Assembly (NCBI RefSeq): GCF_017349295.1
Contig: NZ_JAFMPK010000016.1
Location: forward strand, 1-47,909
Source of the DNA: Myceligenerans salitolerans
GTDB lineage: Bacteria; Actinomycetota; Actinomycetes; Actinomycetales; Cellulomonadaceae
Reading direction: 5' to 3'
Length of the DNA: 47,909 nucleotides
In this document: positions 10,204-45,315 of the stretch, piece by piece
How the letters are laid out: the number at the start of each line of letters is the position of its first letter
Position numbering within the stretch: position 1 is the first letter of the stretch
The notes under the pieces: model-generated
The model's input: only the letters and a program-made list of their open reading frames with translations
The model's database searches: none
Told to the model about the DNA's origin: nothing
Program-made: the position numbers and the translations under genes

Positions 10204-11666
10204 CCCACGCCGTCGCCGACCTCGGCCGCGTGCACATGATCGGCATCGGCGGTGCCGGCATGTCCGTCATCGCGCACCTGCTGCACGCCCGTGGCGTACC
10301 GGTGCGCGGATCCGACGGCGCGGACTCCGCCGCCGTCGCCCGGCTGCGCGCGGCGGGCGTCCCGGTCTGGGTGGGACACGACGCCACGCACGTCACCGGT
10401 GAGGACGGCGACGGCAACGGGCCGGCGGACACCGTCGTCGTCTCCAGCGCGGTGCGTGAGAGCAATCCGGAGCTCGCCGCCGCCCGTGCCGCCGGGCTGC
10501 CGGTACTGCACCGCTCCGAGGCGCTCGCGGCCCTGATGGCCGGCGGGCGGGGGGTGGCCGTGGCCGGCGCCGCGGGCAAGACCACGACGTCGGCCATGCT
10601 CGCCGCCGTGCTGCGGGAGGCCGGGGCCGACCCGTCGTACGCGATCGGCAGCACCGTGCGCACGGCCGACGGCGAGACGCCCGGTGGGCATCTCGGCTCG
10701 TCGGACATCCTCGTGGCCGAGGCGGACGAGTCCGACGGCTCCTTCCTCAACTACGAGCCGGTCGTCTCGGTCGTCACGAACGTCGAGCCGGACCACCTCG
10801 ACCACTGGGGTACGGCCGAGGCCATCCACGCGGCGTTCGTCGAGTTCGCGGGCCGGCTCGCACCGGGCGGGACGCTGGTCGCGTGCGCCGACGACGACGG
10901 CTCGCGGGCGGTCGCGCGGGAAGTGGCCGAGGCCGGTGGCCGGGTCGTCACCTACGGCAGGTCCGACGACGCCGCGGTGCGGGTCGGCGACCTGGTCACC
11001 GGTGCGGACGGCTCGACCGCGTCCCTGCACGGCGCGCTGCTCGGCCCCGAGCCGCTCACCCTGCGGCTGACGGTGCCCGGCCGGCACAACGTGCTCAACG
11101 CCACGGCGGCCGTCGTCGCCGCCGTGCTGCTGGGCGTGGCCCCGGCCGAGGCCGTCGCCGCGGCCCGGGCCTTCGTCGGTACCGGCCGGAGGTTCGAGCC
11201 GAAGGGCGAGGCGGGCGGGGTGCGTGTGGTCGACGACTACGCGCACCATCCCACGAAGGTGGCCGCGCTCCTGGAGGCCGCGCGGACGGTGGCCGCGCCC
11301 GGACGGGTGCTGGTGCTCTTCCAGCCGCACCTGTACTCGCGTACCCGGGACTTCGCGGCCGACTTCGCCAGGGTGCTCTCCCTGGCGGACGAGGTCGTCG
11401 TCACCGGTGTGTACGCGGCGCGCGAGGACCCGGACCCGGCGGTGGGCCCGCAGACCGTCACCGGGCTCATGTCACGGGCCACCGCGCACGCGGTGGACGA
11501 CATGCACGAGGCGGCGCGCGTGGTGGCGGATCTGGCCCGGCCGGGCGATCTGGTGCTCACCGTCGGCGCGGGGGACGTCACGATCCTCGGGCCGGAGATC
11601 CTGGCCCGGCTCACCGAGCGCGCCGCGGCCGGGCAGCTGCGTGCCGTGGGAAGCCCGCGCGGATGA
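10200..11666 (+). CDS. murC: UDP-MurNAc--L-Ala ligase MurC
   Basis: Adds the first amino acid, L-alanine, to UDP-MurNAc. The GTG at 10200 overlaps the murG stop; the longer upstream frame belongs to no conserved sequence. Domains are in order: the N-terminal GIGGAGMS dinucleotide-type loop, the ATP loop GAAGKTT from residue 123, a central domain with EADESDGSF, and the C-terminal DDYAHHPTK motif. At 488 aa the length is normal. Its stop is part of an ATGA that provides the probable ftsQ start. Confidence 0.96.
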   Translation: MTHAVADLGRVHMIGIGGAGMSVIAHLLHARGVPVRGSDGADSAAVARLRAAGVPVWVGHDATHVTGEDGDGNGPADTVVVSSAVRESNPELAAARAAGLPVLHRSEALAALMAGGRGVAVAGAAGKTTTSAMLAAVLREAGADPSYAIGSTVRTADGETPGGHLGSSDILVAEADESDGSFLNYEPVVSVVTNVEPDHLDHWGTAEAIHAAFVEFAGRLAPGGTLVACADDDGSRAVAREVAEAGGRVVTYGRSDDAAVRVGDLVTGADGSTASLHGALLGPEPLTLRLTVPGRHNVLNATAAVVAAVLLGVAPAEAVAAARAFVGTGRRFEPKGEAGGVRVVDDYAHHPTKVAALLEAARTVAAPGRVLVLFQPHLYSRTRDFAADFARVLSLADEVVVTGVYAAREDPDPAVGPQTVTGLMSRATAHAVDDMHEAARVVADLARPGDLVLTVGAGDVTILGPEILARLTERAAAGQLRAVGSPRG

Positions 11667-12652
11667 GACCGCCGCAACCGCCGACGAAGGGCGCAGCGCA
11701 GGGTGGGGGCCGAGGGACGAGGCGCGCGCCCGGAGCGGAGCACGAGGAGTCGGTGGGCAGGGGGCAACCGCCGACGAAGGGCGCAGCGCAGGGTGGGGGC
11801 CGAGGGACGAGGCGCGCGCCCGGAGCGGAGCACGAGGAGCGGGCCGCGTCCGCGCGGCCCGCCGACGGCCCGGGCGTGGTGGCGGACCGGTCTGCTTCCT
11901 CGACGGGACCGGTGAGCATGGTCGACCGGCTCGCCGAGCGTGACGCGGAGCGCAGGGCGATGGCGCGCACGCGCTTCTGGCGCGGCGCCGCCTGGGCGGT
12001 GGGGGGCGCCGCGGTGGCCGTGGCGGTGGGCTGGCTGGCCTTCTTCTCGCCGCTCCTGGCGCTCGACCCGGCGCGGGTGACGGTCTCGGGCGAGGGGACG
12101 ACGATCGACGTCGGCGAGGTTCGCGACGAGATCGTTCCGGAGCGGGGTGTGCCGCTGCCCCGGCTGGACACCGTGGCGCTGCGGGAGCGGGTCCTGGGGC
12201 TGAGCGGTGTCAAGGACGTGCGGATCATGCGCGACTGGCCGCGGGGGCTGACCGTGGAGCTCACGTCGCGCGAGCCGGTGGTCGCGGTGCCGGACGGCGG
12301 TGCGTACGCGCTGCTCGACGAGGACGCCGTGCGCGTCGGGACGGTGGCGTCGCCGACGGACGTGCCGGTGGTCAGCGCGCCGCTGTCGGACGACGCCCGT
12401 TCACGGGCCGCGCTGTTCGCCGCGCTGGACGTCATGGCGGCGTTGCCGCCGGGCCTCGCCGGCAAGGTCGCGTCCGTCACGGCCGACACGCAGGACGACG
12501 TCCGTACCCGGCTCGACGACGGTACGGCGGTGGTGTGGGGGAGCGGCGACCGGCTGGAGCTGAAGGCGCGTGTCGTGACCACTCTGCGCAAGGCGGAGCC
12601 GGACGCGCGCGTGATCGACGTCTCGTCGCCGGACCTTCCGGTCACTCGCTGA
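11663..12652 (+). CDS. ftsQ: Cell division protein FtsQ (DivIB) with duplicated N-terminal tail
   Basis: Bitopic division protein linking cytoplasmic and periplasmic divisome parts. From ATG 11663 (ATGA overlap with murC) it is 329 aa: a cytoplasmic tail of about 104 residues, one membrane helix (about 105-129), a POTRA domain opening with the LDPARVTVSG stretch, and a FtsQ/DivIB domain. The tail contains two identical 25-residue blocks starting QPPTKGAAQGGG, encoded by the 76-bp repeat described separately. An alternative start at ATG 11918 would give 244 aa and leave both repeats non-coding. The overlap with murC and the open frame through both repeats favour 11663, but this is not settled. 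Family identity is secure from position and topology. Confidence 0.85.
   Translation: MRPPQPPTKGAAQGGGRGTRRAPGAEHEESVGRGQPPTKGAAQGGGRGTRRAPGAEHEERAASARPADGPGVVADRSASSTGPVSMVDRLAERDAERRAMARTRFWRGAAWAVGGAAVAVAVGWLAFFSPLLALDPARVTVSGEGTTIDVGEVRDEIVPERGVPLPRLDTVALRERVLGLSGVKDVRIMRDWPRGLTVELTSREPVVAVPDGGAYALLDEDAVRVGTVASPTDVPVVSAPLSDDARSRAALFAALDVMAALPPGLAGKVASVTADTQDDVRTRLDDGTAVVWGSGDRLELKARVVTTLRKAEPDARVIDVSSPDLPVTR
11674..11839 (+). repeat. Two identical 76-bp direct repeats, members of a dispersed repeat family
   Basis: Copies at 11674-11749 and 11764-11839 are identical over 76 bp and are separated by 14 bp, giving a 90-bp period that preserves frame. The core begins GACGAAGGGCG and is purine-rich on this strand. 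A related element lies inverted at 20237-20305, between rluD and dnaE. No terminal inverted repeats or internal hairpin were apparent, so it does not look like an insertion sequence. Confidence 0.92.
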
Positions 12653-12708
12653 GCTCTCCCCGCGGCGACGTGGGGCCGGCGGAATCACATCGGTGTCATT
12701 CGAGCGTG

Positions 12709-12735
12709 CATCGTGGCGCGACACGCGCGACGATG
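12709..12735 (+). terminator. Stem-loop after ftsQ, possible terminator or attenuator
   Basis: Arms of 12 nt pair with one G-G mismatch around a 3-nt loop, followed by TTCTT. The hairpin lies 57 nt after the ftsQ stop and just before a promoter-like sequence for ftsZ. It could uncouple ftsZ from the mur operon. The loop contains GACAC, the core that WhiA binds in Streptomyces; relevance here is unknown. Confidence 0.45.
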
Positions 12736-12738
12736 TTC

Positions 12739-12767
12739 TTGGACCGGCAGTGGTACGCACATACCGT
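12739..12767 (+). promoter_or_regulatory. Candidate ftsZ promoter
   Basis: TTGGAC (12739-12744), 17 nt, then TACCGT (12762-12767). Transcription would start near 12775, giving a leader of about 100 nt before the ftsZ GTG. A dedicated ftsZ promoter upstream of the gene is common in Actinobacteria. Not tested. Confidence 0.4.
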
Positions 12768-12873
12768 CGGAGTCAGCAGCAACGTGACATAACACTAACC
12801 CTCTACCTTAACCTGAGACTTTCTCGGGGACCAGGGGGCGAGGTCGCAAGGACCCGGATCGAAAGGCGACGAC

Positions 12874-14205
12874 GTGGCAACTCCGCAGAACTACCTGGCA
12901 GTGATCAAGGTGGTCGGTATCGGTGGCGGTGGTGTGAACGCCGTCAACCGCATGATCGAGGTCGGCCTCAAGGGCGTCGAGTTCATCGCGATCAACACCG
13001 ACGCACAGGCGCTCCTCATGTCCGATGCCGACGTCAAGCTCGACGTCGGTCGCGAGCTCACCCGCGGTCTGGGCGCCGGCGCCGATCCCGAGGTGGGCAA
13101 GAAGGCGGCCGAGGACCACGCCGAGGAGATCGAGGACGTGCTGCGCGGTGCGGACATGGTCTTCGTCACGGCCGGTGAGGGCGGTGGCACGGGCACGGGT
13201 GGCGCGCCCGTGGTGGCCCGCATCGCGCGGTCGCTCGGCGCCCTGACGGTCGGTGTCGTGACCCGTCCCTTCACCTTCGAGGGGCGCCGCCGCGCCGTCC
13301 AGGCCGATCAGGGCATCGAGAACCTGCGCGACGAGGTCGACACGCTGATCGTCATCCCGAACGACCGGCTGCTGTCGATGTCCGACCGCAACGTGTCCGC
13401 GATCTCCGCCTTCCACTCGGCCGACCAGGTGCTGCACTCCGGCGTCCAGGGCATCACCGACCTCATCACCACGCCGGGCCTGATCAACCTCGACTTCGCC
13501 GACGTGAAGTCGGTCATGCAGGGCGCCGGGTCCGCGCTCATGGGCATCGGTTCGGCCCGCGGCGAGGACCGGGCCGTGCAGGCCGCCGAGCTGGCGATCT
13601 CCTCGCCGCTGCTGGAGGCGTCGATCGACGGAGCCCACGGCGTGCTGCTCTCGATCCAGGGCGGCAGCGACCTTGGGCTGTTCGAGGTGCACGAGGCCGC
13701 GCGCCTGGTGCAGGAGGCCGCGCACCCGGAGGCGAACATCATCTTCGGTACGGTCATCGACGACGCCCTGGGCGACGAGGTGCGGGTCACCGTCATCGCC
13801 GCCGGGTTCGACGGTGGTGTCCCGCAGCAGCGCAAGGACTCCGGCGCGCTCGGCACCGTGGCCGGCGGGCGTTCGTCCGCCCCTGCCACGGCGCAGGTCC
13901 CGGCCGTCACGTCCGACGCCGCCCGCCGGGCGCCGGACCCCGTGCCGGCGCCGCCCGGCGACGACCGGCCCGCGTCGTTCCCGCCCGCCGCGGTGACCAC
14001 GCTGCCCCACGTCGTGACGGACGACGGCGGGGACGACGTGCCGGAGAGCCTGGACGAGCCCGCCGTGGTGGTCTCACCCTCTTTCGACCGGCGCGACGCC
14101 GAGGGCGCGCCGGTCGGTGGGTCGCGGGTCGAGGTCCCGCCGCTGTTCGACGAGTCCTCGCGCCGCACGGTCGACGAGCTCGACGTGCCGGACTTCCTGA
14201 AGTGA
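12874..14205 (+). CDS. ftsZ: Cell division GTPase FtsZ
   Basis: Tubulin homologue that forms the cytokinetic ring. The GTG at 12874 follows GAAAGGCG. The GTP-binding T1 loop GIGGGGVNA is near residue 16 and the tubulin signature [12 protein letters not shown] begins at residue 101. The T7 loop is visible as [12 protein letters not shown] variable Pro/Asp-rich linker (about 320-425) leads to the conserved tail [10 protein letters not shown], which binds SepF and FtsW in Actinobacteria. At 443 aa the length is normal. It is separated from ftsQ by 221 nt carrying its own promoter-like elements. Confidence 0.98.
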
Positions 14206-14227
14206 CCCGGTGACCCGGACCGCCTCG

Positions 14228-14240
14228 TAGGCTCCCGTCC
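14228..14240 (+). promoter_or_regulatory. Putative leaderless -10 of pgeF
   Basis: TAGGCT at 14228-14233 followed by 7 nt and ATG 14241. No ribosome binding site is seen. Confidence 0.45.
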
Positions 14241-15032
14241 ATGACCGCGGACACCGGCATCGGCACGATCCCCGTCGACCTCGGCGCGGGGGTCCGTGCG
14301 TTCTTCACCACGGCGTCCGGCGGAGTCTCCCCCGAGCCGTGGGCGAGGCCGGGGGGATCCGGGCTCAACCTCGGACTCAACGTGTCCGACGACGCGGGAC
14401 GCGTCCGGAGGAACCGCGCCCTGGTCGGCGCGCTCCTGGGCGGGCTCCCGCTGGCGTTCGCCACCCAGGTGCACTCGGCCCGGGCGATACCGCTCGGCCC
14501 CGAGGAGCACGCGCGGTGGCGCACCGACACCGCCCCCGACACGGCGGGTGAGGGCGATGCGCTCGTGACGGCCGAGCGAGGTCTGGGGCTCGGCGTCCTG
14601 GTCGCGGACTGCGTGCCTGTCCTGCTCGCCGATCCCGGTGCGGGCGTGGTCGGCGTCGCGCACGCGGGACGCAAGGGCACCGCCGCCGGCGTGGTGCTGC
14701 GCGCACTGGGATCCATGGCCGAGCGTGGCGCCCGGCCGGACCGGACACGTGCCGTGGTGGGGCCCGCGGTGTGCGGGCGCTGCTACGAGGTGCCCGAGGA
14801 ACTTCGTGACGAGGTCGCCGCCGTGGTGCCCGGTGCCTTCGCCGAGACGGCCTGGGGGACGCCGTCGCTCGACCTGCCCGCTGCCGTCGGCGCCCAGCTG
14901 TCCGGGGCCGGCGTCGACGTGACACGCGTCGAGCGCTGCACGCTCGAGGACGAGGAGTTCTTCTCCCACCGGCGCGCGACCGCTCGCGGCACCACCACGG
15001 GCCGGCAGGCGGGCATCGTCGCCCTGGTCTGA
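14241..15032 (+). CDS. pgeF: Peptidoglycan editing factor / multicopper-oxidase-like purine nucleosidase (YfiH, DUF152)
   Basis: Laccase-domain protein of the YfiH family. Family members act on purine nucleosides, and the E. coli protein corrects wrong amino acids in muropeptide precursors. The metal-ligand pattern is present: VHSA, ADCVP and AHAGRKG (His-Cys-His), plus VVGPAVCGRCYEV. At 263 aa the length is normal. The gene directly follows ftsZ, as usual in Actinobacteria. The yggS gene that normally comes next is absent. Confidence 0.9.
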   Translation: MTADTGIGTIPVDLGAGVRAFFTTASGGVSPEPWARPGGSGLNLGLNVSDDAGRVRRNRALVGALLGGLPLAFATQVHSARAIPLGPEEHARWRTDTAPDTAGEGDALVTAERGLGLGVLVADCVPVLLADPGAGVVGVAHAGRKGTAAGVVLRALGSMAERGARPDRTRAVVGPAVCGRCYEVPEELRDEVAAVVPGAFAETAWGTPSLDLPAAVGAQLSGAGVDVTRVERCTLEDEEFFSHRRATARGTTTGRQAGIVALV

Positions 15033-15077
15033 TCGGCCGGCGGGGCAGTGTCAGCCACCCCGGCTACCGTTCGAGCC

Positions 15078-15104
15078 ATGACCTGCGGAAGCACAGCCAT
15101 GTAA
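15078..15104 (+). other. Possible 8-codon leaderless mini-ORF
   Basis: TACCGT (15065-15070) lies 7 nt before an ATG that opens an 8-codon frame reading MTCGSTAM and ending in TAA. The layout matches the leaderless starts elsewhere in the window. It may be the remaining start region of a lost yggS, a leader peptide, or chance. Evidence is weak. Confidence 0.25.
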
Positions 15105-15125
15105 TTTCACTGGGCATGTGTTGAA

Positions 15126-15142
15126 CAACTTTGGCAAAGTTG
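15126..15142. promoter_or_regulatory. Perfect 17-bp palindrome upstream of sepF
   Basis: CAACTTTG-G-CAAAGTTG, 8-bp arms with a 1-nt centre. The centre is too small for an RNA loop without opening pairs, so a dimeric protein site is more likely than a terminator. The AT-richness stands out in this genome. Confidence 0.55.
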
Positions 15143-15187
15143 GTCACGGCACGGCGTGTCGCGCTTCGGTGTCGGAACGCGCCAGGC

Positions 15188-15218
15188 TACTTTTGTCAAG
15201 CCGCACGAGTCGTGCGGC
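15188..15218 (+). promoter_or_regulatory. sepF promoter candidate with 19-bp palindrome at the start site
   Basis: TTCGGT (15165-15170), 17 nt, TACTTT (15188-15193) could form a promoter. A perfect palindrome GCCGCACGA-G-TCGTGCGGC (15200-15218) begins about where transcription would start, a typical position for a repressor operator. sepF translation starts 63 nt later. Inference from sequence geometry. Confidence 0.4.
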
Positions 15219-15281
15219 CACACGCAGGCAGACCGGATAGCGGAGAAGGAACTCGCAAGAGGGCGACGAACGGAGAGAGCG

Positions 15282-15755
15282 ATGGCCGGAGCGCTTCGAA
15301 AGACCATGCTGTATCTGGGCCTCGCCGACGAGCAGGGCGAGCGGGACGCGTACTACGACGAGTACGAGGACGTGGAGGAGACCGTGCAGGACCACCGACA
15401 CGCCCAGGTGACGCCGCTGCACCCGGACGGTGCGCCCGGCGACGTCCCGCTGTCCACGTCGGAGCTGCGCCGGATCACCACCGTGCACCCGCGCTCGTAC
15501 AACGACGCGCGGATGATCGGTGAGGCGTTCCGTTCGGGCACCCCGGTGATCATGAACCTCACCGACATGGACGACGCCGACGCCAAGCGTCTGGTCGACT
15601 TCTCGGCCGGTCTGATCTTCGGGCTGCACGGCTCCATCGACCGCGTGACCAACAAGGTCTTCCTGCTGTCGCCGGAGCACGTGGAGATCGCGGGCGAGGA
15701 GCACGTGGCCCAGCCGCCCGCCACGAGCAAGGGCGGTTTCTACAACCAGAGCTGA
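15282..15755 (+). CDS. sepF: Cell division protein SepF
   Basis: Membrane-tethering partner of FtsZ; the only recognisable Z-ring anchor in this cluster, which lacks ftsA. The ATG at 15282 follows GGAGAGAG and gives 157 aa. The N-terminal amphipathic stretch [14 protein letters not shown] is the expected membrane-binding helix. A Tyr/Asp/Glu-rich linker and a globular SepF domain (from about residue 55) with the [16 protein letters not shown] core follow. A longer open frame from 15156 would run through the upstream palindrome and is not supported. Confidence 0.95.
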
Positions 15756-15878
15756 CGACCTCTCCGCGGGTCCTCTCCCTCCGGTCGAGCGCGCCGGGCA
15801 TCCTTCGCGAGGCCCGGCGCGCTCGGTGCGTCCGGGAGTCGTCCGGCGCGCTGGTACCGCATCGTGGTGCCCGTCGCG

Positions 15879-15890
15879 TAGGTTGGTCTC
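15879..15890 (+). promoter_or_regulatory. Putative leaderless -10 of yggT
   Basis: TAGGTT at 15879-15884, 6 nt, then GTG 15891. Confidence 0.45.
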
Positions 15891-16190
15891 GTGGCTCTGT
15901 TCTGGGGAATCATCGACTTCGCGTTGTTCGCGTTCCTGCTCCTCCTCATCGGGCGGCTGATCTTCGACTGGGTGCAGTACTTCGCCCGCGACTGGCGGCC
16001 GTCCGGCGTGGTGCTCGTGATCGCCGAGGCGATCTACACCGTGACCGATCCGCCCCTGCGGGTCCTGCGGCGGGTCATCCCTCCGCTGCGGCTGGGCTCC
16101 GTGCAGTTGGACCTTGCTTTCATGGTGCTCTTTTTTCTGGTGGTTATTGCCCAGTCGATCGTGCGGAACCTCGCGGCGGCAACGATGTGA
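15891..16190 (+). CDS. YggT family membrane protein
   Basis: Small integral membrane protein of 99 aa with two hydrophobic segments (about residues 4-27 and 73-93) around a cytoplasmic loop containing TDPPLRVLRRVIPPLR, the YggT family core. Its molecular role is unknown; it is almost always found between sepF and divIVA in Gram-positive dcw clusters, and an envelope function is assumed. The GTG start is set by the leaderless -10. Confidence 0.9.
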   Translation: MALFWGIIDFALFAFLLLLIGRLIFDWVQYFARDWRPSGVVLVIAEAIYTVTDPPLRVLRRVIPPLRLGSVQLDLAFMVLFFLVVIAQSIVRNLAAATM

Positions 16191-16206
16191 GTGTGACCCT
16201 CGTCAT

Positions 16207-16221
16207 GCGACGATCCGTCGC
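16207..16221. promoter_or_regulatory. Small inverted repeat between yggT and divIVA
   Basis: GCGACG-ATC-CGTCGC, 6-bp arms and 3-nt loop, 17 nt after the yggT stop. It could be a weak terminator or a protein site. Further on, TAACGT at 16278-16283 could serve as a -10 for divIVA. Low confidence in both. Confidence 0.3.
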
Positions 16222-16376
16222 GGTGTGATGAATTCGTGACCGGACGCGGTCCTGGTGCCCAGCCCGGTAACAATCCGCTAACGTGGGAACCCGGCGGACG
16301 TGCCGGCAGCCACCATGACCGGTGAGCGCGGGTGTCCGGCGAGCAATTCCGGCTTCAAGGCATTGAGGTGACATGC

Positions 16377-17015
16377 ATGGCACTGCTGACGGCTGAGGAC
16401 ATCCTCAACAAGAAGTTCTCTGCAACAAAGTTCCGTGAAGGGTATGACGTCGAGGAAGTTGACGACTTCCTCGACGAGGTCGTACGGACCCTCACGTCCG
16501 TCCAGGAGGAGAACGAAGGGCTGCACTCCAAGCTGGCGGCTGCCGAGCGACGCATCGCGGAGCTGTCCCGCGGCGAGGGCGCCGTCCAGCGCCAGGCGGC
16601 GCCCGCACCGGCTGCCGCGCCCGTCGCGGCGCCGATGGGCGGCCCGCAGGGGGCCCCGGAGCCGGAGAACGCCACGGGCATGCTCCAGCTCGCCCAGAAG
16701 CTGCACGACGACTACGTGCGCTCCGGACAGGAGGAGGGCGACCGGCTCATCAGCGAGGCGAAGGCCGAGGGGGCTCGCATCGTGCGCGATGCCGAGGAGA
16801 CGAGCCACCGCACGCTCTCGCAGCTCGAGCAGGAGCGGTCGCTGCTGGAGCGCAAGATCGACGAGCTCCGCCTGTTCGAGCGGGACTACCGCACGCGTCT
16901 GAAGAGCTTCCTGCAGAACCTGCTCGGCGACCTCGACGCCCGGGGCTCGGCCCTGCCGCAGGGGCGCGGGGGCCAGCAGCAGGGTCGTCCCGCGGAGATG
17001 GCGCAGGGGCTCTGA
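16377..17015 (+). CDS. divIVA: Polar growth and septum protein DivIVA / Wag31
   Basis: Coiled-coil scaffold that marks negatively curved membrane and, in Actinobacteria, directs tip growth. The ATG at 16377 follows GAGGTGAC. The conserved N-terminal domain reads MALLTAEDILNKKF...FREGYDVEEVDDFLDEV. A Pro/Ala-rich linker (about 80-105) separates it from a long C-terminal coiled coil ending in a Gly/Gln-rich tail. At 212 aa it is in the family range. The upstream extension to 16332 lacks homology and is not used. Confidence 0.96.
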   Translation: MALLTAEDILNKKFSATKFREGYDVEEVDDFLDEVVRTLTSVQEENEGLHSKLAAAERRIAELSRGEGAVQRQAAPAPAAAPVAAPMGGPQGAPEPENATGMLQLAQKLHDDYVRSGQEEGDRLISEAKAEGARIVRDAEETSHRTLSQLEQERSLLERKIDELRLFERDYRTRLKSFLQNLLGDLDARGSALPQGRGGQQQGRPAEMAQGL

Positions 17016-17233
17016 GGCCCGAAGCGGGCGACCGGTCTTGGCCGGTCACCGCGGTCGCAAGGGCGCCGAGCGCCGGCCCCGGAGAACGACCTCATTGCCA
17101 CCGGCGCGCGGCGGCACCGACAACGGCCCGTGCAGCGAGAATTCGTCGTCAGTTCGGCGAGTCCCGTTGTGCGGGCCGCTTGTTGTGCCTACGCTACTCG
17201 GACTTGACCCGGGGCGGCCGTGAAGGGGATCCC

Positions 17234-17695
17234 ATGACCAAGCTTTCGACGACGACGCGCACCGCGCTGAAGCAGTCGTTTCCCAACCTTGCCAAAGATG
17301 TGAAGAAGTTCCCGGTGCGTGAGGGCGAGGAGCCGTGGACGCTGGGCGAGGTGGAAGAGCTCGCGGCCCTTCTGCTCGAGGACCGGGAGCGCCTGGAGGG
17401 CGAGCTGCGGGCGGCCGACGCCGAGCTCAGCGACCTCCTGCGCAACTCCGGCGACGGCGCGGGCGACGACCAGGCGGACTACGGCTCCAGTGCGCTCGAG
17501 CGCGAGCAGGAGCTCACGCTGGTCAACAACATGCGCGATCTGCTGGAGCAGACGGAGCACGCCATCGAGCGGATCTCGGCGGGGACGTACGGTATCTGCG
17601 AGGTCACCGGTCTGCCGATCGGCAAGGCGCGACTCCAGGCGTTTCCGCGTGCCACTCTGTCGGTGGAGGCAAAGGCCCGCGAAGAGCGCCGGTAA
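17234..17695 (+). CDS. TraR/DksA family protein with degenerate zinc finger
   Basis: Probable RNA polymerase secondary-channel type regulator of the DksA/TraR family, 153 aa from ATG 17234 behind AAGGGGA. An N-terminal part leads to an acidic coiled-coil hairpin (about 45-105) and the C-terminal finger region GTYGICEVTGLPIGKARL. Normal members bind zinc with four cysteines. Here only C122 remains; the other positions are T125, S143 and A146, so zinc binding as usual is impossible. Zinc-less relatives exist in other bacteria. It sits after divIVA with its own 218-nt upstream region. Function in this organism is not known. Confidence 0.85.
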   Translation: MTKLSTTTRTALKQSFPNLAKDVKKFPVREGEEPWTLGEVEELAALLLEDRERLEGELRAADAELSDLLRNSGDGAGDDQADYGSSALEREQELTLVNNMRDLLEQTEHAIERISAGTYGICEVTGLPIGKARLQAFPRATLSVEAKAREERR

Positions 17696-17839
17696 GCAGC
17701 ACCGCAACCGCGCTCCCGGGCATTTCTGGGGGCAATATCAAAGTGGTGATGTCGGGGTTGTCGGTGTTGCAGGGGCATTGTCCTGGTGTTCTATCCGGAA
17801 ATGTCGCGTTCATGCGTCGAGTGGATCTTCGCGTTCCGA

Positions 17840-17868
17840 TTGACAGGGTGAATTTCTCGGAAGATGCT
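17840..17868 (+). promoter_or_regulatory. Candidate promoter of the secreted repeat protein gene
   Basis: TTGACA (17840-17845, a perfect -35), 17 nt, then GATGCT (17863-17868). Transcription would start near 17875, at the first arm of the hairpin described next. The region 17696-17945 is distinctly less GC-rich than its surroundings. Confidence 0.5.
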
Positions 17869-17872
17869 CATG

Positions 17873-17914
17873 GCGATGAATCACACGCGTGTCATTCACG
17901 GTGTGATTCATCGC
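17873..17914 (+). promoter_or_regulatory. 14-bp perfect inverted repeat in the mRNA leader
   Basis: Arms 17873-17886 and 17901-17914 pair perfectly over 14 bp; the 14-nt loop can add four more pairs (CGTG/CACG). TTTT follows directly, so it could act as an attenuator. As it lies at the predicted transcript start it could instead be an operator or a 5' stabilising hairpin. The start codon is 31 nt further on, after GAGGAG. Confidence 0.6.
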
Positions 17915-17945
17915 TTTTCATCCGACGCTATTTCGAGGAGACACA

Positions 17946-18323
17946 ATGATGCGAGGATTCCGTGCGGCAGGACGCGCAGCTGCGGCCGTGGTGATGGCGG
18001 CGGGTCTGGTGGGCGCGGCCGCGACGGGCGCGAGCGCGTCGGTCACGACGGCCGAGGGCCCGGGCGACGGCAGCCTCAACGTGCTGAACAACGTCTGCAT
18101 CGCGCCGTGGTACTGGGAGGGTCCGGGCAACGTCAGCAACACCGGCAACCTGACCGACTACATCGCCTGCAACGGTGCGCCGGCCGAGATGGGCGGCGAC
18201 GGCTCGATCAACATCCTGAACAACGTCTGCGCCCTGCCGTGGCACTGGGACGGCCCGCTGAACCTGCTCGCCACGGGCAACGTGACCCAGTACAACGCCT
18301 GCAACGCCCCGGCCGGTTCCTGA
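17946..18323 (+). CDS. Small secreted protein with two tandem ~41-residue repeats
   Basis: 125 aa with a Sec signal peptide (Arg-rich start, Ala/Val-rich core, likely cut after ATGASA near residue 31). The mature part is two copies of one unit (about residues 40-82 and 84-125) sharing the pattern GDGS-N-LNNVC--PW-W-GP-N---TGN-T-Y-ACN--PA. Each unit has two cysteines and several Trp/Tyr and Asn residues. I do not recognise the family with certainty. Chaplins and rodlins of Streptomyces are similarly small, secreted and Gly/Asn-rich, but their diagnostic motifs are not evident. GAGGAG precedes ATG 17946 (ATG 17949 is also possible). It is monocistronic, with its own promoter and terminator. A surface or matrix role is a guess. 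Confidence 0.8.
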   Translation: MMRGFRAAGRAAAAVVMAAGLVGAAATGASASVTTAEGPGDGSLNVLNNVCIAPWYWEGPGNVSNTGNLTDYIACNGAPAEMGGDGSINILNNVCALPWHWDGPLNLLATGNVTQYNACNAPAGS

Positions 18324-18411
18324 CCGAGGTGCTGTAGTCCGCGGCACGCGTTCGTAGACCACCGGCGCATATCCTCCCAGCCGCCGCATGGTGAGCGACG
18401 GTGCCGCATCT

Positions 18412-18450
18412 GGTGAGGCCCTTTCCCGGAATCCGGGAAAGGGCCTCACC
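18412..18450. terminator. Strong palindromic terminator
   Basis: A perfect 19-bp inverted repeat with a 1-nt centre (18412-18430 / 18432-18450), 89 nt after the secreted protein gene and followed by GTCTTTCG. It isolates that gene from lspA. The stem sequence is symmetric, so it could work on both strands. Confidence 0.8.
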
Positions 18451-18571
18451 GTCTTTCGTGGGTGCTTCCCCGCACCGTTCCCGGCGCACGGGACCGCCTG
18501 CCGAGGACGGTCCGGGCGGGGCCGCCTCCGGCAGACGTGCCCCGCGTCCGTCGCATGGGAGACTTTGCCTG

Positions 18572-19207
18572 ATGTCTACTCCCGCAGAACCTTCCGCCGC
18601 CGCCGACGGCGAGACGGACGCCCCGGCCACGCCCGTGTCGTCGGGCAGCCGTGTCCTGGTCACCTGGACCGGTGTGCTCGCGGCCGTCGTACTCGTCGCC
18701 GACCAGCTCACCAAGTGGTGGGCGGAGTCGGCCCTCGTCGAGGGCGGGGAACCGATCCCCGTGATCGGCGAGCTCATCCAGTTCCGTCTCGTCTACAACC
18801 CGGGTGCCGCGCTGTCGATCGCCACGGGTATGACGTGGGTCCTCACGATCATCGTGGTGGTCGTGGTGATCGCGATCCTGCGGCTGATACGCAGGCTCGG
18901 CTCCCGAGGCTGGGCGGTGTCGCTCGGTCTGCTGCTCGGGGGCGCGGTCGGCAACCTCGTCGACCGCCTGCTGCGCGAGCCCGGTTTCGCCCGCGGCCAC
19001 GTGGTCGACTTCATCGACTACGCCGGATTCTTCGTGGGCAACGTGGCAGACATCGCGATCGTGGTCGCGGCCGTCTGGATCGCGATCCTCTCACTCCTCG
19101 GCATCGGGGTCGACGGGCGCCGGGAGGGCGAGGCGCGGCACACGGCGTCGTCGGAAAGCAACGACACGTCGTCCGGGAGCCCGGACGACGTCGCCGGGGC
19201 CGCGTGA
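18572..19207 (+). CDS. lspA: Prolipoprotein signal peptidase LspA
   Basis: Membrane aspartyl peptidase that cleaves lipoprotein signal peptides after lipidation. From ATG 18572 it is 211 aa with a hydrophilic 35-residue start, four hydrophobic segments and a Ser/Asp-rich tail. Active-site blocks are visible: [17 protein letters not shown] (first Asp) and GNVADI (second Asp). The stop overlaps the rluD start (TGATG). The upstream frame to 18401 runs through the terminator and is excluded. At least two likely substrates lie in the window (the Rieske protein and the trypsin-like protease). Confidence 0.95.
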
Positions 19208-20142
19208 TGCCGCTGCGGACGCTGCCCGTCCCCGACGGTCTCGACGGCGACCGGGTCGACGCCGCGCTCGCGCGCATGCTCGGCCTGTCCCGGACGCGCG
19301 CCGCCGAACTCGCCGCGTCCGGCGCCGTGCGGCTGGACGGACGCGAGGTCGGCAAGTCGGACCGGGTCCTGGCCGGGTCGGCCCTCGAGGTCGACGTTCC
19401 CGACGAGCGTGGCGGCGGTCGTCACGAGGTGGATCCCGTGCCGGTCGAGGGCATGGACATCGTGCACGACGACGACGACATCGTCGTGATCGACAAGCCC
19501 GTCGGAGTGGCCGCCCACCCGTCACCCGGCTGGACCGGGCCTACGGTGGTCGGGGCGCTGGCCGCGGCCGGCTACCGGATCTCCACCTCAGGTGCGCCCG
19601 AACGGCAGGGCATCGTGCACCGGCTCGACGTCGGGACGTCCGGCCTGATGGTCGTCGCGAAGTCCGAGCTCGCGTACTCGGCGCTGAAGCGCGCGTTCAA
19701 GGAACGCACGGTGGAGAAGGTCTACCACGCGCTCGCGCAGGGGCATCCCGACCCGACGTCCGGCACCATCGACGCCCCGATCGGGCGGCACCCGAGCGCG
19801 GACTGGAAGTTCGCGGTCACGGCCGACGGCAAGCCGTCGGTGACGCACTACGAGACGCTCGAGATGCTGCCGGCCGCGTCACTCGTCGAGGTTCACCTGG
19901 AGACCGGACGCACACATCAGATCCGTGTGCACTTCGCCGCCCTGCGGCACCCTCTCGTCGGGGACCTGACCTATGGCGCCGATCCCGTGCTCGCGACACG
20001 GGCGGGCATCACGCGGCAGTGGCTGCACGCGGTACGCCTCGGGTTCGACCACCCCGGAACGGGGGAGTGGCTGGAGGTCGCCTCGGACTACCCCGCGGAC
20101 CTCGCGACAGCGCTGGACACGATCGGCGGGCACTACCGCTGA
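19207..20142 (+). CDS. rluD: RluD-family pseudouridine synthase
   Basis: RNA pseudouridine synthase acting on large-subunit rRNA in the RluA/RluD family. It has an N-terminal S4 domain (about residues 13-75) and a catalytic domain with the [12 protein letters not shown] motif carrying the catalytic Asp, then [10 protein letters not shown]. The ATG overlaps the lspA stop; the lspA-rluD pairing is widely conserved. At 311 aa the length is typical. Exact target uridines cannot be read from sequence. Confidence 0.93.
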
Positions 20143-20193
20143 GGCGGTGATGGCGCAGGTCGTACCAGTGGTGCGGGACATCCGCCCGGTGCG

Positions 20194-20305
20194 CTGCGCG
20201 TCGCCCTTCGTCACTGAGGATGTTGCCGCGCCATTTCCTCGGGCTGTGCTTCGGGCGGGTGCCTCGTTCCTCGGCTCCGACCCTGCGCGTCGCCCTTCGT
20301 CACTG
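20194..20305 (-). repeat. Inverted copies of the dispersed repeat between rluD and dnaE
   Basis: On the - strand, 20304-20237 aligns along its length with the 76-bp repeats at the start of ftsQ, beginning GTGACGAAGGGCG. A partial copy shares 23 identical bases at 20194-20216 (against 20283-20305). The full copy ends 15 bp before the dnaE -10 box. This stretch between rluD and dnaE has no gene. Confidence 0.8.
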
Positions 20306-20319
20306 TCGGTGGCCCCGCA

Positions 20320-20331: not shown

Positions 20332-23300
20332 ATGCCCACCGCGACTGCTCCTTCCCCGGCCTCGAAGAGCGAGGACTTCGTCCACCTGCACGTCCACACG
20401 GAGTTCTCCATGCTGGACGGCGCGGCGCGGATCGGGGACCTCATGGACGAGGTCGGGCGGCAGGGTCAGAAGGCCATCGCCACCACGGACCACGGGTACC
20501 TGTTCGGCGCGCACGAGTTCTGGGCACAGGCCGAGAAGAAGGGCATCAAGCCCATCATCGGCGTCGAGGCCTACGTGACGCCGGGCACCAGCCGGTTCGA
20601 CCAGACGCGTGTCCGGTACGGCGAGGCGGGCCAGGAGTCCGACGACGTGTCGGCGCGCGGCGCCTACACGCACATGACGCTGCTGAGCAAGAACAACACC
20701 GGCATGCACAACCTGTTCCGCGCCTCGTCGCTGGCGTCGATCGAGGGGCAGATGGGCAAGTGGCCGCGGATGGACCGGGAGCTCCTGGAGCGCTACTCCG
20801 AAGGGCTCATCGCGACCACGGGCTGTCCGTCGGGCGAGATCCAGGTGCGCCTCCGGCTCGGGCAGTGGGACGAGGCCGTCCGCCAGGCCGGTGAGCTGCA
20901 GGAGATTTTCGGCAAGGAGAACTACTACGTCGAGCTCATGGACCACGGGCTCGAGATCGAGACCCGCGTGACCAAGCAGCTCCTGGAGCTGGCCGAGCAC
21001 ATCGGCGCGCCACTGGTCGCCACGAACGACCTGCACTACGTCCGCGAGGACGACGCCACCAGCCAGGAGGCACTGCTCGCCATCAACTCGGGGTCCACGC
21101 TGGACGACCCCAACCGGTTCAAGTTCGACGGCACCGGCTACTACGTGAAGTCGGCCGCCGAGATGCGGCGGATCTTCAAGGAGATCCCCGAGGCGTGCGA
21201 CAACACGCTGCTCATCGCCGAGCAGTGCGAGGTGTCCTTCGACACGAGCGCGAACTACATGCCGCGCTTCCCGGTGCCCGACGGGGAGGACGAGATCTCC
21301 TGGTTCGTCAAGGAGGTCGAGAAGGGCCTGCACCGCCGGTACCCGGCCGGAATCCCGGACGCCGTGCGCAAGCAGGCCGAGTACGAGACCGACGTCATCG
21401 TCCAGATGGGCTTCCCGGGATACTTCCTCGTGGTCGCCGACTTCATCAACTGGTCCAAGGAACAGGGCATCCGCGTGGGGCCCGGCCGCGGTTCCGCGGC
21501 GGGCTCGATGGTCGCCTACGTCATGGGCATCACCGAGCTCGACCCGCTGGAGCACGGCCTGATCTTCGAGCGGTTCCTCAACCCCGAGCGTGTGTCCATG
21601 CCCGACGTCGACGTGGACTTCGACGAGCGCCGGCGCGGGGAGGCCATCCAGTACGTCACCGAGAAGTACGGCGACGACCGCGTGGCGATGATCGTCACCT
21701 ACGGCACCATCAAGGCCAAGCAGGCGCTCAAGGACTCCGCCCGGCTGCTCGGCTTCCCCTTCGCGATGGGGGAGAAGCTCACCAAGGCGATGCCACCCGC
21801 CGTGATGGGCAAGGACATCCCGCTGTCCGGCATCTTCGACCCCAAGCACGACCGGTACGCCGAGGCGTCCGAGTTCCGGCAGTTGCACGACACCGATCCC
21901 GAGGCGCAGCGGGTCGTCGAACTCGCGCGCGGCATCGAGGGCCTGAAGCGGCAGTGGGGCGTGCACGCGGCCGGCGTGATCATGTCGAGCGACCCGCTGA
22001 TCGACATCATCCCGATCATGAAGCGCCTGCAGGACGGCGCGATCATCACGCAGTTCGACTACCCGACGTCCGAGGGCCTCGGCCTCATCAAGATGGACTT
22101 CCTGGGCCTGCGCAACCTCACGATCCTCGACGACGCCCTCGAGAACATCGTGATGAACGGCAAGGACCCGGTCGACATCGAGAACGTCGGGCTCGACGAC
22201 AAACCCACCTACGAACTGCTCGCCAGCGGCAACACGCTCGGTGTCTTCCAGCTCGACGGCGGTGCGATGCGCTCCCTGCTGCGGCAGATGCGCCCGGACA
22301 ACTTCGAGGACGTCTCCGCCGTCATCGCCCTGTACCGGCCCGGGCCGATGGGCATGAACTCGCACGTCAACTACGCGCTGCGAAAGAACGGGCAGCAGAA
22401 GATCGAGGCGATCCACCCCGAGGTGGTCGAACCCTTCGCCGAGATCCTCGACGAGACCTACGGCCTGATCGTCTACCAGGAGCAGGTGCAGCGCGCCGCC
22501 CAGATCATGGCCGGGTACTCCCTCGGCCAGGCCGACCTGCTGCGTCGCGCGATGGGCAAGAAGAAGCCCGAGGTACTGGCCAAGGAGTTCGTGAACTTCG
22601 AGAAAGGTGCCAAGGAGAAGGGATACAGCGACGGGGCGATCAAGGCGGTCTGGGACACGCTGGTCCCGTTCGCCGGGTACGCGTTCAACAAGGCGCACTC
22701 CGCCGGCTACGGCCTCGTCGCGTACTGGACCGCCTACCTCAAGGCGAACTACCCGGCCGAGTACATGGCCGCCCTCCTGCAGTCCGTGGGGGACAACAAG
22801 GACAAGATGGCGCTCTACCTCAACGAGTGCCGTCGCATGGGCATCACGGTGCTCCCGCCCGACGTCAACGACTCCGCCGTGAAGTTCACGGCCGTCGGGG
22901 GCGACATCCGCTTCGGCCTCACGGGAGTGCGGAACGTCGGCAAGAACGTGGTCGACGCGATCGTGGCCGCCCGCGAGGAGCGCGGCGCCTACACCTCGTT
23001 CACCGACTTCCTGGACAAGGTTCCCGCCGTGGTCTGCAACAAGCGCACCATCGAGTCGCTCGTCAAGGCCGGCGCCTTCGACTCCCTCGGACACACGCGG
23101 CGCTCGCTGCTCGTGGTGCACGAGCAGGCGGTCGACTCGGTCATCAGTGTGAAGCGCAAGGAGGCGGAGGGGCAGTTCGACCTGTTCGCCGACCTGGGCG
23201 CCGGCGACACCGGTGACGACGGCGGGATGAGCTTCGCGGTGGAGGTGCCGGACCTGCCGGACTGGGAGAAGAAGCAGAAGCTCGCTTTCGAGCGGGAGAT

Positions 23301-23898
23301 GCTCGGCCTGTACGTGAGCGACCATCCGCTGTCCGGCCTGGACCACGTGCTGTCCCGGGCCTCGGACACGTCGGTCGCCTCGCTGCTCGGTGACGGCGAA
23401 CGGCCGGAGAACTCCGTGGTGACGGTCGCCGGCCTCCTCACGTCGGTCCAGCGCAAGATGAGCAAGAACGGCAACCCGTGGGCGGCGGTCACTCTCGAGG
23501 ACCTCGAAGGTGCGGTCGAGGTGATGTTCTTCGGGGAGACCTACCTGGCCTACTCGACGGTGCTCGCGGAGGACCAGGTGGTGGTGCTGCGCGGGAAGGT
23601 GCGCAAACGTGACGACCAGGTCTCGCTGCAGGCGATGGAGGTCGCGCTGCCCGACATCACCGTGGGTGCGGACTCCCCGCTCGGGGTGACCGTGCCGCAC
23701 ACCCGCGCGGTCGAGCCGGTGATGGTGCGCCTGCGCGAGGTCCTGGCCGACCATCCCGGCTCGGCCGAGGTGCATGTCGCGGTGGAGGAGCCGGGCAAGC
23801 GGACGGTCGTACGCGCCGCCGACTCCCTCCGCGTCGAGAAGACGCCGGCACTCTTCGGCGACCTCAAGGCCCTGCTCGGGCAGAGCTGTCTGTCATGA
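20332..23898 (+). CDS. dnaE: DNA polymerase III alpha subunit DnaE1
   Basis: Replicative polymerase, 1188 aa. The N-terminal PHP domain begins HLHVHTEFSMLDGAA, with an intact histidine pattern consistent with the PHP exonuclease of actinobacterial DnaE1. The polymerase domain carries GPGRGSAAGS and the catalytic PDVDVDFDERRR. A helix-hairpin-helix region is followed by an OB fold (VTVAGLLTSVQRKMSKNG). Length and PHP domain indicate the replicative DnaE1 rather than the mutasome DnaE2. The start is fixed by the leaderless -10, and the stop overlaps the next gene (ATGA). Confidence 0.97.
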   Translation: MPTATAPSPASKSEDFVHLHVHTEFSMLDGAARIGDLMDEVGRQGQKAIATTDHGYLFGAHEFWAQAEKKGIKPIIGVEAYVTPGTSRFDQTRVRYGEAGQESDDVSARGAYTHMTLLSKNNTGMHNLFRASSLASIEGQMGKWPRMDRELLERYSEGLIATTGCPSGEIQVRLRLGQWDEAVRQAGELQEIFGKENYYVELMDHGLEIETRVTKQLLELAEHIGAPLVATNDLHYVREDDATSQEALLAINSGSTLDDPNRFKFDGTGYYVKSAAEMRRIFKEIPEACDNTLLIAEQCEVSFDTSANYMPRFPVPDGEDEISWFVKEVEKGLHRRYPAGIPDAVRKQAEYETDVIVQMGFPGYFLVVADFINWSKEQGIRVGPGRGSAAGSMVAYVMGITELDPLEHGLIFERFLNPERVSMPDVDVDFDERRRGEAIQYVTEKYGDDRVAMIVTYGTIKAKQALKDSARLLGFPFAMGEKLTKAMPPAVMGKDIPLSGIFDPKHDRYAEASEFRQLHDTDPEAQRVVELARGIEGLKRQWGVHAAGVIMSSDPLIDIIPIMKRLQDGAIITQFDYPTSEGLGLIKMDFLGLRNLTILDDALENIVMNGKDPVDIENVGLDDKPTYELLASGNTLGVFQLDGGAMRSLLRQMRPDNFEDVSAVIALYRPGPMGMNSHVNYALRKNGQQKIEAIHPEVVEPFAEILDETYGLIVYQEQVQRAAQIMAGYSLGQADLLRRAMGKKKPEVLAKEFVNFEKGAKEKGYSDGAIKAVWDTLVPFAGYAFNKAHSAGYGLVAYWTAYLKANYPAEYMAALLQSVGDNKDKMALYLNECRRMGITVLPPDVNDSAVKFTAVGGDIRFGLTGVRNVGKNVVDAIVAAREERGAYTSFTDFLDKVPAVVCNKRTIESLVKAGAFDSLGHTRRSLLVVHEQAVDSVISVKRKEAEGQFDLFADLGAGDTGDDGGMSFAVEVPDLPDWEKKQKLAFEREMLGLYVSDHPLSGLDHVLSRASDTSVASLLGDGERPENSVVTVAGLLTSVQRKMSKNGNPWAAVTLEDLEGAVEVMFFGETYLAYSTVLAEDQVVVLRGKVRKRDDQVSLQAMEVALPDITVGADSPLGVTVPHTRAVEPVMVRLREVLADHPGSAEVHVAVEEPGKRTVVRAADSLRVEKTPALFGDLKALLGQSCLS

Positions 23899-44370: not shown

Positions 44371-45315
44371 ATCAGCGAGCCTCGCATCAACGACCGGATC
44401 CGTGTTCCCGAGGTCCGGCTCATCGGCCCGGGCGGGGAGCAGGTCGGCGTAGTTGCCACGGCAGTCGCCCTGAAGCTTGCCCAGGACGCTGACCTCGACC
44501 TCGTCGAGGTCGCCCCGAACAGCCGGCCGCCTGTCGCCAAGCTCATGGACTTCGGCAAGTTCAAGTACGAGTCCGACATGAAGGCGCGTGAGGCGCGGCG
44601 GAACCAGACGAACACGATCCTCAAGGAGATCCGGTTCCGTCTGAAGATCGACCCGCACGACTACGCCACCAAGAAGGGCCACGTGGAGCGGTTCCTCTCG
44701 GCCGGTGACAAGGTCAAGGTCATGATCATGTTCCGCGGCCGCGAGCAGTCCCGCCCGGAGATGGGCCGGCGGCTGCTCGAGCGGCTGGCGGACGACGTCG
44801 CGGAGCTCGGCTTCGTCGAGTCCATGCCGAAGCAGGACGGCCGCAACATGACGATGGTCATCGGCCCGGTCAAGAAGAAGGCCGAGGCGGCGAAGGCCGA
44901 GCGTCCCGCCAAGCAGCGTGGGCACGAGAAGCTGAGCAAGTCCCAGGCGCGCCGTGCGGCCGAGGCGGCAGCGGCTGCCGACACGGGGTCCGCCGACACG
45001 GGGTCCGCCGACGAGGAGACGCCGAAGGCGGCAGCGACCCCGGCGACCCCGGCGCCGTCCGAGGCAGCTCCGGTGGCGGACACCGCGAAGGCCGCGCCGC
45101 GCCCGCGCACGACACCCGCGTCCAGGCCCGCGACGTCGAAGCCGGCGACCGCGCCCCGGCCCGCCGCGGCGCCGAAGCCGGCTGCCGCACCGAAGCCGGC
45201 CGCGGCGCCCAAGCCGGCTGCCGCACCGAAGCCGGTGGCGGCGCCCAAGCCGGTGGCCAAGCCCTCCGCTCCCAAGCCGGCGGCACCCAAGCCGCGCGGG
45301 CCGCGCAAGGGCTGA
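44371..45315 (+). CDS. infC: Translation initiation factor IF-3 with ATC start and long tail
   Basis: Binds the 30S subunit and ensures start codon fidelity. The conserved start [19 protein letters not shown] begins at an ATC codon (44371), 7 nt after AGGAG (44359-44363). No ATG/GTG/TTG fits between the leader and the conserved start. Rare initiation codons such as AUU/AUC are the known basis of IF3 self-repression. N-domain (about 1-75) and C-domain (80-170, with [18 protein letters not shown]) are complete. A further ~120 residues are Ala/Pro/Lys-rich with repeated PKPAAA, far beyond the usual ~180-200 aa. Confidence 0.9.
45166..45258 (+). repeat. 18-bp minisatellite in infC tail
   Basis: About five units of 18 bp encode repeated [12 protein letters not shown]; alternate units are most alike, giving a 36-bp super-period. 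In-frame changes in copy number would vary tail length. Confidence 0.85.

Follow-up and report, generated by a model that had tools for sequence, protein, structure and literature searches.

The window analysed here, a 47,909-nt stretch of Myceligenerans salitolerans that represents one contig of a 4.58-Mb assembly in 49 contigs, carries several copies of a dispersed repeat belonging to a family of long, strongly covarying hairpins with a core of 68–71 nt and the loop GAGGNACGA. Most of the tested copies of this family sit at the stop codon of a host gene, their outer arms are specific to the locus, they form tandem units, and they are patchily present at the corresponding sites of congeneric genomes. 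We interpret the family, with moderate confidence, as a non-autonomous mobile hairpin that is targeted to stop codons and has a second arm either created to fit the host gene or adjusted to it.

A covarying hairpin at stop codons, closed by locus-specific arms

From the outside inwards, the hairpin consists of an outer stem, an internal loop, a GGGC/GCCC stem, a purine loop, a GC/GC stem, another purine loop, a stem of 11 pairs with one frequent mismatch and the conserved apical loop of 9 nt; the internal loops are short, symmetric and purine-rich. In an alignment of 20 copies from the M. salitolerans genome, built without structural fitting, changes on both sides were found at 18 of the 25 pairs, and 89.7% of the cells were paired, as compared with 73.9% in shuffled alignments (none of 500 reached the observed value) and 30–46% when the partners were slid against each other. 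A further alignment (A4) was fitted to the structure, leans towards it and was not relied on. Fold z-scores ranged from −3.8 to −6.5 for four copies and from −3.0 to −5.0 for three copies of the M. salitolerans genome. By eye, double changes that keep the pairing are also seen between orthologous copies, at columns 31-53 and 32-52 in those of the tad locus and at columns 27-57 and 31-53 in those of rpsI. An earlier note on this DNA had reported neither terminal inverted repeats nor a hairpin, which is wrong for the family, as it possesses a long hairpin plus locus-specific arms at both ends. Rfam families gave no match in the window at the gathering score, and the five weak matches in six loci of the same genome did not overlap the element.

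Variants of the unit were observed as well. Short units at three loci (L136, from about position 1501, L272 and L262) keep the outer stem without the inner hairpin and lie beside or in tandem with full units; they are probably internal-deletion derivatives. A weak match of 27.9 bits at L107 (about 1501–1581) has the apical hairpin motif just downstream of a sequence resembling the 3′ end of a tRNA.

The position of the element was scored relative to stop codons that end an upstream frame of 60 or more codons whose third positions look coding. In 42 of 65 first-of-array copies the element starts no more than 6 nt from such a stop codon, versus 21 of 1074 random positions in the same loci; the 65 matches were chosen from 130 rows, among which some copies appear more than once and inner units and weak matches also occur. 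The stop codon is TAG at L132 and TAA at L243 (by eye). Judged by eye from the translations, the hosts in M. salitolerans include rpsI and genes for a transaldolase, a phosphoglycerate mutase, a methionine aminopeptidase and a sugar-binding protein, and those in other genomes (likewise by eye) include isocitrate lyase, groEL and rplK. In rpsI the element follows the stop codon and precedes a terminator-like hairpin and is therefore probably transcribed together with the gene, while in a gcvP-like gene (L064) it lies within the final codons and provides a new stop codon (by eye). In groEL of three genera outside the own family (L124, L131 and L140) the element occurs at the same stop codon, with the arm GGGCTTC/GAAGCCC or a close variant.

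As the stop codon stands at the start of the element, the last codons of the gene form one arm of its outer stem. We refer to these codons, the 5′ arm, as X and to their reverse complement, the 3′ arm, as rcX. The flanks outside the core vary between copies and pair within each of them, for example AACGGC with GCCGTT, CTGACG with CGTCAG, GTCGACTGAGCC with GGCTCAGTCGAC and GTCGTCTGAGACC with GGTCTCAGACGAC; the inner part of the terminal stem (TGAGCC/GGCTCA) is common to several genera and the outer part varies by locus. Across 54 copies, which take in tandem units and are thus not independent, 5.24 of 7 bases pair between the arms, against 2.31 in mismatched pairings (0 of 2000 permutations). 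The same holds for the first units of 31 of the 40 loci of genome G029 (three duplicates and six unparsed loci left out), with 4.58 of 5 bases against 3.79, and for 48 of the 60 printed loci of named organisms (four orthologues dropped, eight not entered), with 4.48 of 5 against 2.85, neither value being reached in 5000 permutations. In these 48 loci X differs from the common TCGCC at 79 positions; rcX matches X at 59 of them, retains the common base at 13 and shows some other base at 7. Where X has the common base (161 positions), rcX carries its partner at 156. Three loci of G029 share a letter-identical 71-nt core and have three different X, each with a matching rcX and a copy of X.

In arrays, the unit is mostly 87–93 bp long and comprises the core, rcX, a short spacer, which in G029 is often A-rich, and a sequence that ends at the next core or at the native downstream DNA. 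In G029 this last sequence copies X, perfectly in 16 of 27 units by script and in two further, misparsed ones by eye. At most of the printed Promicromonospora loci the unit end is close to a fixed TAGAGCC and rcX often still follows X, so that the inverted match appears more constant than the direct repeat. Runs of N occur in or beside the element arrays at four loci of a draft assembly (L069, L068, L062 and L077), which suggests more tandem units than were counted. At L240, two copies lie 0.5 kb apart with an ORF resembling a cold-shock protein between them (by eye; no search for an autonomous partner was made).

Distribution among genomes and at congeneric sites

The genome scans scored, under strict filters, at most 78 candidates per genome in the set of 59 genomes and at most 11 in the samples of the order and of the phylum, and the counts of copies and genomes derived from them are lower bounds. 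The earlier note had expected many more copies beyond those in the window, and indeed 37 covariance-model matches (E ≤ 0.01), some of them partial, were found in the 4.58-Mb genome. At the same threshold, matches to R1 were present in 19 of 59 genomes, namely in 17 of 37 genomes of the own family and, weakly, in two of 22 others of the order. Copy numbers were 37, 14, 13 and 22 in the genomes of the own genus and at least 78 in G029, and nine other genomes of the family had from 13 to at least 78 R1 matches each. In a sample of 396 genomes of the order, 23 matched at E ≤ 1e-4, including members of three other families, and a sample of 396 genomes of the phylum searched with R2 gave two matches, both in the own order and one of them the M. 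salitolerans genome itself. Among the matches listed in a pattern scan of named genomes were Antribacter, Promicromonospora, Isoptericola, Cellulosimicrobium, Myceligenerans, Xylanimicrobium and one Arthrobacter. We assign the family to one actinobacterial order, in which it is densest in the Promicromonosporaceae group. Identical cores were found across different genera and at unrelated genes, in a comparison that included 38 loci from the pattern scan. No match was obtained in viral contigs (with the pattern of that scan) or phages (one query). Carriage by plasmids was considered and discarded, as one query gave a single short match to a Bosea plasmid, which we take as unrelated, and a second query gave none.

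Thirty sites, corresponding to ten loci of M. salitolerans in three congeners, were compared (an eleventh locus, L089, returned no congener locus). Over 2689–3082 bases, loci of two of the congeners, G001 and G003, are identical to records of Myceligenerans pegani and M. indicum (L091/L268, L109/L297 and L092/L247). R1 (E ≤ 1e-6) detected the element at seven of these, in the tad locus of all three congeners, in rpsI of two and once each at two other loci. At 18 of the 23 sites where it was undetected, the final 6 nt of the gene had no reverse complement within 110 nt. The gene for the sugar-binding protein carries two 90-bp units in M. salitolerans, and in the three congeners it runs from GGC directly to TGA without rcX. 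Insertion into a pre-existing palindrome is unsupported at this gene, all three congeners being without rcX.

Mobility, templating and rival explanations

In the mechanism that we propose, the mobile part would be the core of about 68–71 nt, short, non-coding and forming one long hairpin, which would insert mostly at the stop codon of a gene and in sense orientation. X, with or without the stop codon, would then become the 5′ arm of the terminal stem, and rcX would constitute the 3′ arm, followed in several genera by a spacer and a copy of X. By this arrangement the C-terminus of the gene and a stop codon would be kept. We infer that the element has transposed actively, that rcX has been generated or corrected against X and that the mover is a host enzyme or one that has gone unrecognised. 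Mobility is argued for by the patchy sites, by the letter-identical cores at unrelated loci and by the tandem growth; among the ideas put forward in the earlier note, that of a miniature mobile element fits best, given the dispersed copies, the congener sites where the element went undetected, some of which hold remnants, and the identical cores. Nothing was seen that favours its suggestion of a nucleoid- or replication-linked motif, replication direction not having been tested.

The match of rcX could have arisen by templating, either through snap-back synthesis, in which the 3′ end of the hairpin is extended on the adjacent X, or through a later correction by strand switching, or else by selection on an mRNA hairpin that closes on the stop codon. 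Templating upon insertion, in which snap-back extension on the neighbouring coding strand would write an inverted copy of the last codons, is a possibility that we regard as rather doubtful at present, and it is favoured by the three loci with identical cores and three matched X. If true, every copy would be closed by a host-specific stem while the gene end and its stop codon are preserved, and the unit of about 90 nt would, in circular form, be a rod closed by loops at its two ends.

Several observations weigh against our interpretation of the family. The arm is imperfect in 12 of the 31 first units of G029, seven of which keep the common GGCGA, and inner units of arrays (e.g., at L289 and L276) show no such match to the preceding sequence, so that templating at every insertion is unproven. 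Identical cores across genera indicate that the core is slow or homogenised and not a strict clock, which weakens the argument for templating, and rcX may have co-adapted slowly. No stop codon as defined above was found for 23 of the 65 copies, including the two entries from the window; copies that do not fit are the ftsQ pair and the dnaE copy of the window, several Myceligenerans copies starting with CGACG, and an array of 93-bp units without a stop codon in Antribacter gilvus (L287). The 6-nt rcX is still held at five of the 23 undetected congener sites. By eye, apparent remnants of the element are present in at least one congener at the transaldolase, RraA-like and phosphoglycerate mutase genes and at rpsI (in G003), and remnants also occur in congeners at rluD–dnaE and possibly at ftsQ. 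Many of the differences between congeners would accordingly be losses rather than fresh insertions; clean empty sites are not claimed at these loci, and our confidence in the proposed explanation is slightly lowered, in favour of the rival explanations by a functional RNA and by a minisatellite. In an eight-row alignment of orthologues, four of five covariation measures lie above almost every shuffled alignment, but the fifth is not above the shuffles (308/500). Finally, transposition was not observed, and searches for Y1_Tnp and RVT_1 in the 19 carrier genomes pointed to no enzyme that would move the element.

The strongest rival is an RNA hairpin with a function of its own in the 3′ untranslated region, for example a stabiliser of the mRNA or modulator of translation termination, whose structure is selected to close on the stop codon and which has spread slowly and incidentally. 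The double changes that keep pairs between orthologous copies are in line with such a role, as are the shared location in groEL of three genera and in rpsI of two and the position of the rpsI element ahead of the terminator-like hairpin; moreover, ribosome stalling by REP hairpins at most 15 nt from the stop codon is reported (PMC12306157). However, a functional RNA would not lead one to expect the patchy presence in 17 of 37 genomes of the family and at seven of 30 congener sites, the tandem arrays, the identical cores at unrelated genes, or the in-frame copies in ftsQ and the antisense copy, and we consider it unlikely as the full explanation.

The remaining explanations are far less probable. 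Copying of a small structured RNA into gene ends by a reverse transcriptase would agree with the structured, transcript-like hairpin in sense orientation, with the tandem multimers and with several hosts of usually strongly expressed kinds (rpsI, groEL and rplK, by eye). RVT_1 (PF00078) was however detected in only 2 of 19 carriers and in none of the six with at least 15 copies outside the own genus, which leaves this origin unsupported and very improbable. We give as little credence to a MIRU-like element which inserts at sites of translational coupling, where start and stop codons overlap, and restores the coupling by its own small ORF. The TGA position, tandem units and co-orientation with genes are shared with such an element, but A, G or T precedes TGA in only 6 of 47 TGA loci (by eye), the other 41 lacking a DTGA overlap, and R2 had no match outside the own order among the 396 phylum genomes (11 candidates were scored per genome, and MIRU itself was not aligned). 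Slightly less credible still are elements of the REP/BIME type moved by a REP-associated Y1 tyrosine transposase; the family is palindromic, close to gene 3′ ends and often arrayed, yet the printed arrays show no alternating orientation, and Y1_Tnp (PF01797), detected in two other genomes and in 5 of 14 controls, was present in none of the 19 carriers, by which an origin from REP/RAYT is largely refuted. The least convincing is an ordinary minisatellite or gene-conversion debris without mobility of its own, since tandem units with partial last units and remnants resembling deletion products would suit it, but not the dispersal at unrelated genes, the left boundary at a stop codon in 42 of 65 copies or the locus-specific arms. 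A by-product of recombination, as also considered in the earlier note, could likewise explain the tandem units, and fails to account for dispersed copies and locus-matched arms.

Copies in the window and comparison with known elements

The copies in the window are atypical for the family, two being in frame within ftsQ and one antisense ahead of dnaE (Table 1). Two identical stretches of 76 bp (11674–11749 and 11764–11839), offset by 90 bp, were recovered exactly as first described, and both are read in frame in the N-terminal region of FtsQ, with 30 codons per 90-bp unit. The diverged copy on the minus strand (about 20304–20236) is also present, with 83% identity across 66 nt, as is the exact partial copy, which represents the first 22 nt of the element. 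That the similarity between rluD and dnaE might be due to chance is contradicted by a BLAST E-value of 1.8e-13 against the own genome and a covariance-model E-value of 5.2e-17. The shared start GACGAAGGGCG, with one mismatch allowed, has seven matches in the window where 3.83 are expected and is weak evidence alone. The ftsQ copy has a moderate fold z-score (−2.34) and the rluD–dnaE copy one that does not set it apart from shuffles (−0.62), which makes the window copies weaker than the family; the copy between rluD and dnaE is an older, poorly paired one, and the outer stem of copy 2 is by eye weaker than that of copy 1. In ftsQ, all three congeners are without an intact copy. The second unit ends in sequence similar to that of one of them, and judging from this an older, decayed element is possible there. 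Between rluD and dnaE only a comparable fragment of approximately the first 22 nt is found in the congeners.

Table 1. Copies of the element and adjacent genes in the 47,909-nt window.
Feature	Position	Strand	Remarks
Copy 1, core (hairpin)	11682..11749	+	in ftsQ; covariance-model match 11675-11756, 73.5 bits
Copy 1, outer stem, left arm	11675..11681	+	CAACCGC; pairs with right arm (predicted fold)
Copy 1, outer stem, right arm	11750..11756	+	TCGGTGG (predicted fold)
Copy 2, core	11772..11839	+	tandem; covariance-model match 11765-11845, 58.2 bits
Copy 3, core	20235..20302	-	antisense to rluD and dnaE; covariance-model match 20228-20309, 79.8 bits
Partial copy	20194..20215	-	22 nt at 100% identity
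ftsQ	11663..12652	+	ORF; NCBIfam FtsQ model, E 6.5e-33, 114 bits (curated cut-off of 353 not reached)
dnaE	20332..23898	+	next gene downstream of copy 3; DNA polymerase III alpha (NCBIfam)

Among the genes of the window, NCBIfam names MurC, FtsQ (below the cut-off), an RluA-family enzyme and DnaE. The start of ftsQ overlaps the stop codon of murC (ATGA), and copy 3 lies between the end of rluD (20142) and the start of dnaE. Elsewhere in the window, a small ORF of 125 amino acids (17946–18323, plus strand) contains an apparent signal peptide and two similar repeats of about 44 amino acids, the DNA of which is 74% identical (18046–18174 and 18178–18306), and has the look of a small secreted protein. 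Tandem repeats of 18 bp are found at 45137–45262 (plus strand).

We found no description of the family in the open-licence PMC literature. It belongs with the small interspersed palindromes, its closest named kinds being REP/BIME, MIRU, ERIC-like miniature inverted-repeat transposable elements (MITEs) and the Rickettsia palindromic elements. REP/BIME resemble it as short palindromic repeats, many of them near gene 3′ ends and often arrayed; unlike these, its unit is mostly 87–93 nt, its terminal arms match the host, and it starts at the stop codon itself in 42 of 65 cases. REP/RAYT elements are characterised by a palindrome of 20–40 bp with a GTAG or CGTC tag (PMC3733652), to which a core of 68–71 nt does not correspond (the tags were sought by eye only). 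The MIRU of mycobacteria are likewise small, mobile-looking units, often in tandem, at gene junctions and co-oriented. They have been described as apparently mobile units that insert at start codons with −4-nt coupling (PMC12548453). The present element differs from them in the absence of a start/stop overlap in 41 of 47 loci and in its strong covarying hairpin.

ERIC/IRU, Correia, RUP and similar MITE-like palindromes are non-coding and non-autonomous and form long imperfect hairpins; their terminal inverted repeats are fixed, and they come with short duplications, for instance of TA. Our element agrees with them in being non-coding and non-autonomous and in the type of hairpin, whereas the outer part of its terminal arm differs from locus to locus. 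Rickettsia palindromic elements are palindromic repeats that may occur in frame within genes, like the ftsQ copies; most tested copies of our element are by contrast at stop codons, and in-frame cases are few among those examined. Bacteria commonly carry small interspersed palindromes, the terminal arms of which normally belong to the element. An arm complementary to whichever gene the copy occupies points either to an insertion that copies its target in inverted form or to selection for a hairpin that closes on the stop codon, and either origin would inform on the spread of elements without a known transposase and on the 3′ ends of mRNAs in actinomycetes of high GC content. If templating were proven, the family would represent a new kind of element.

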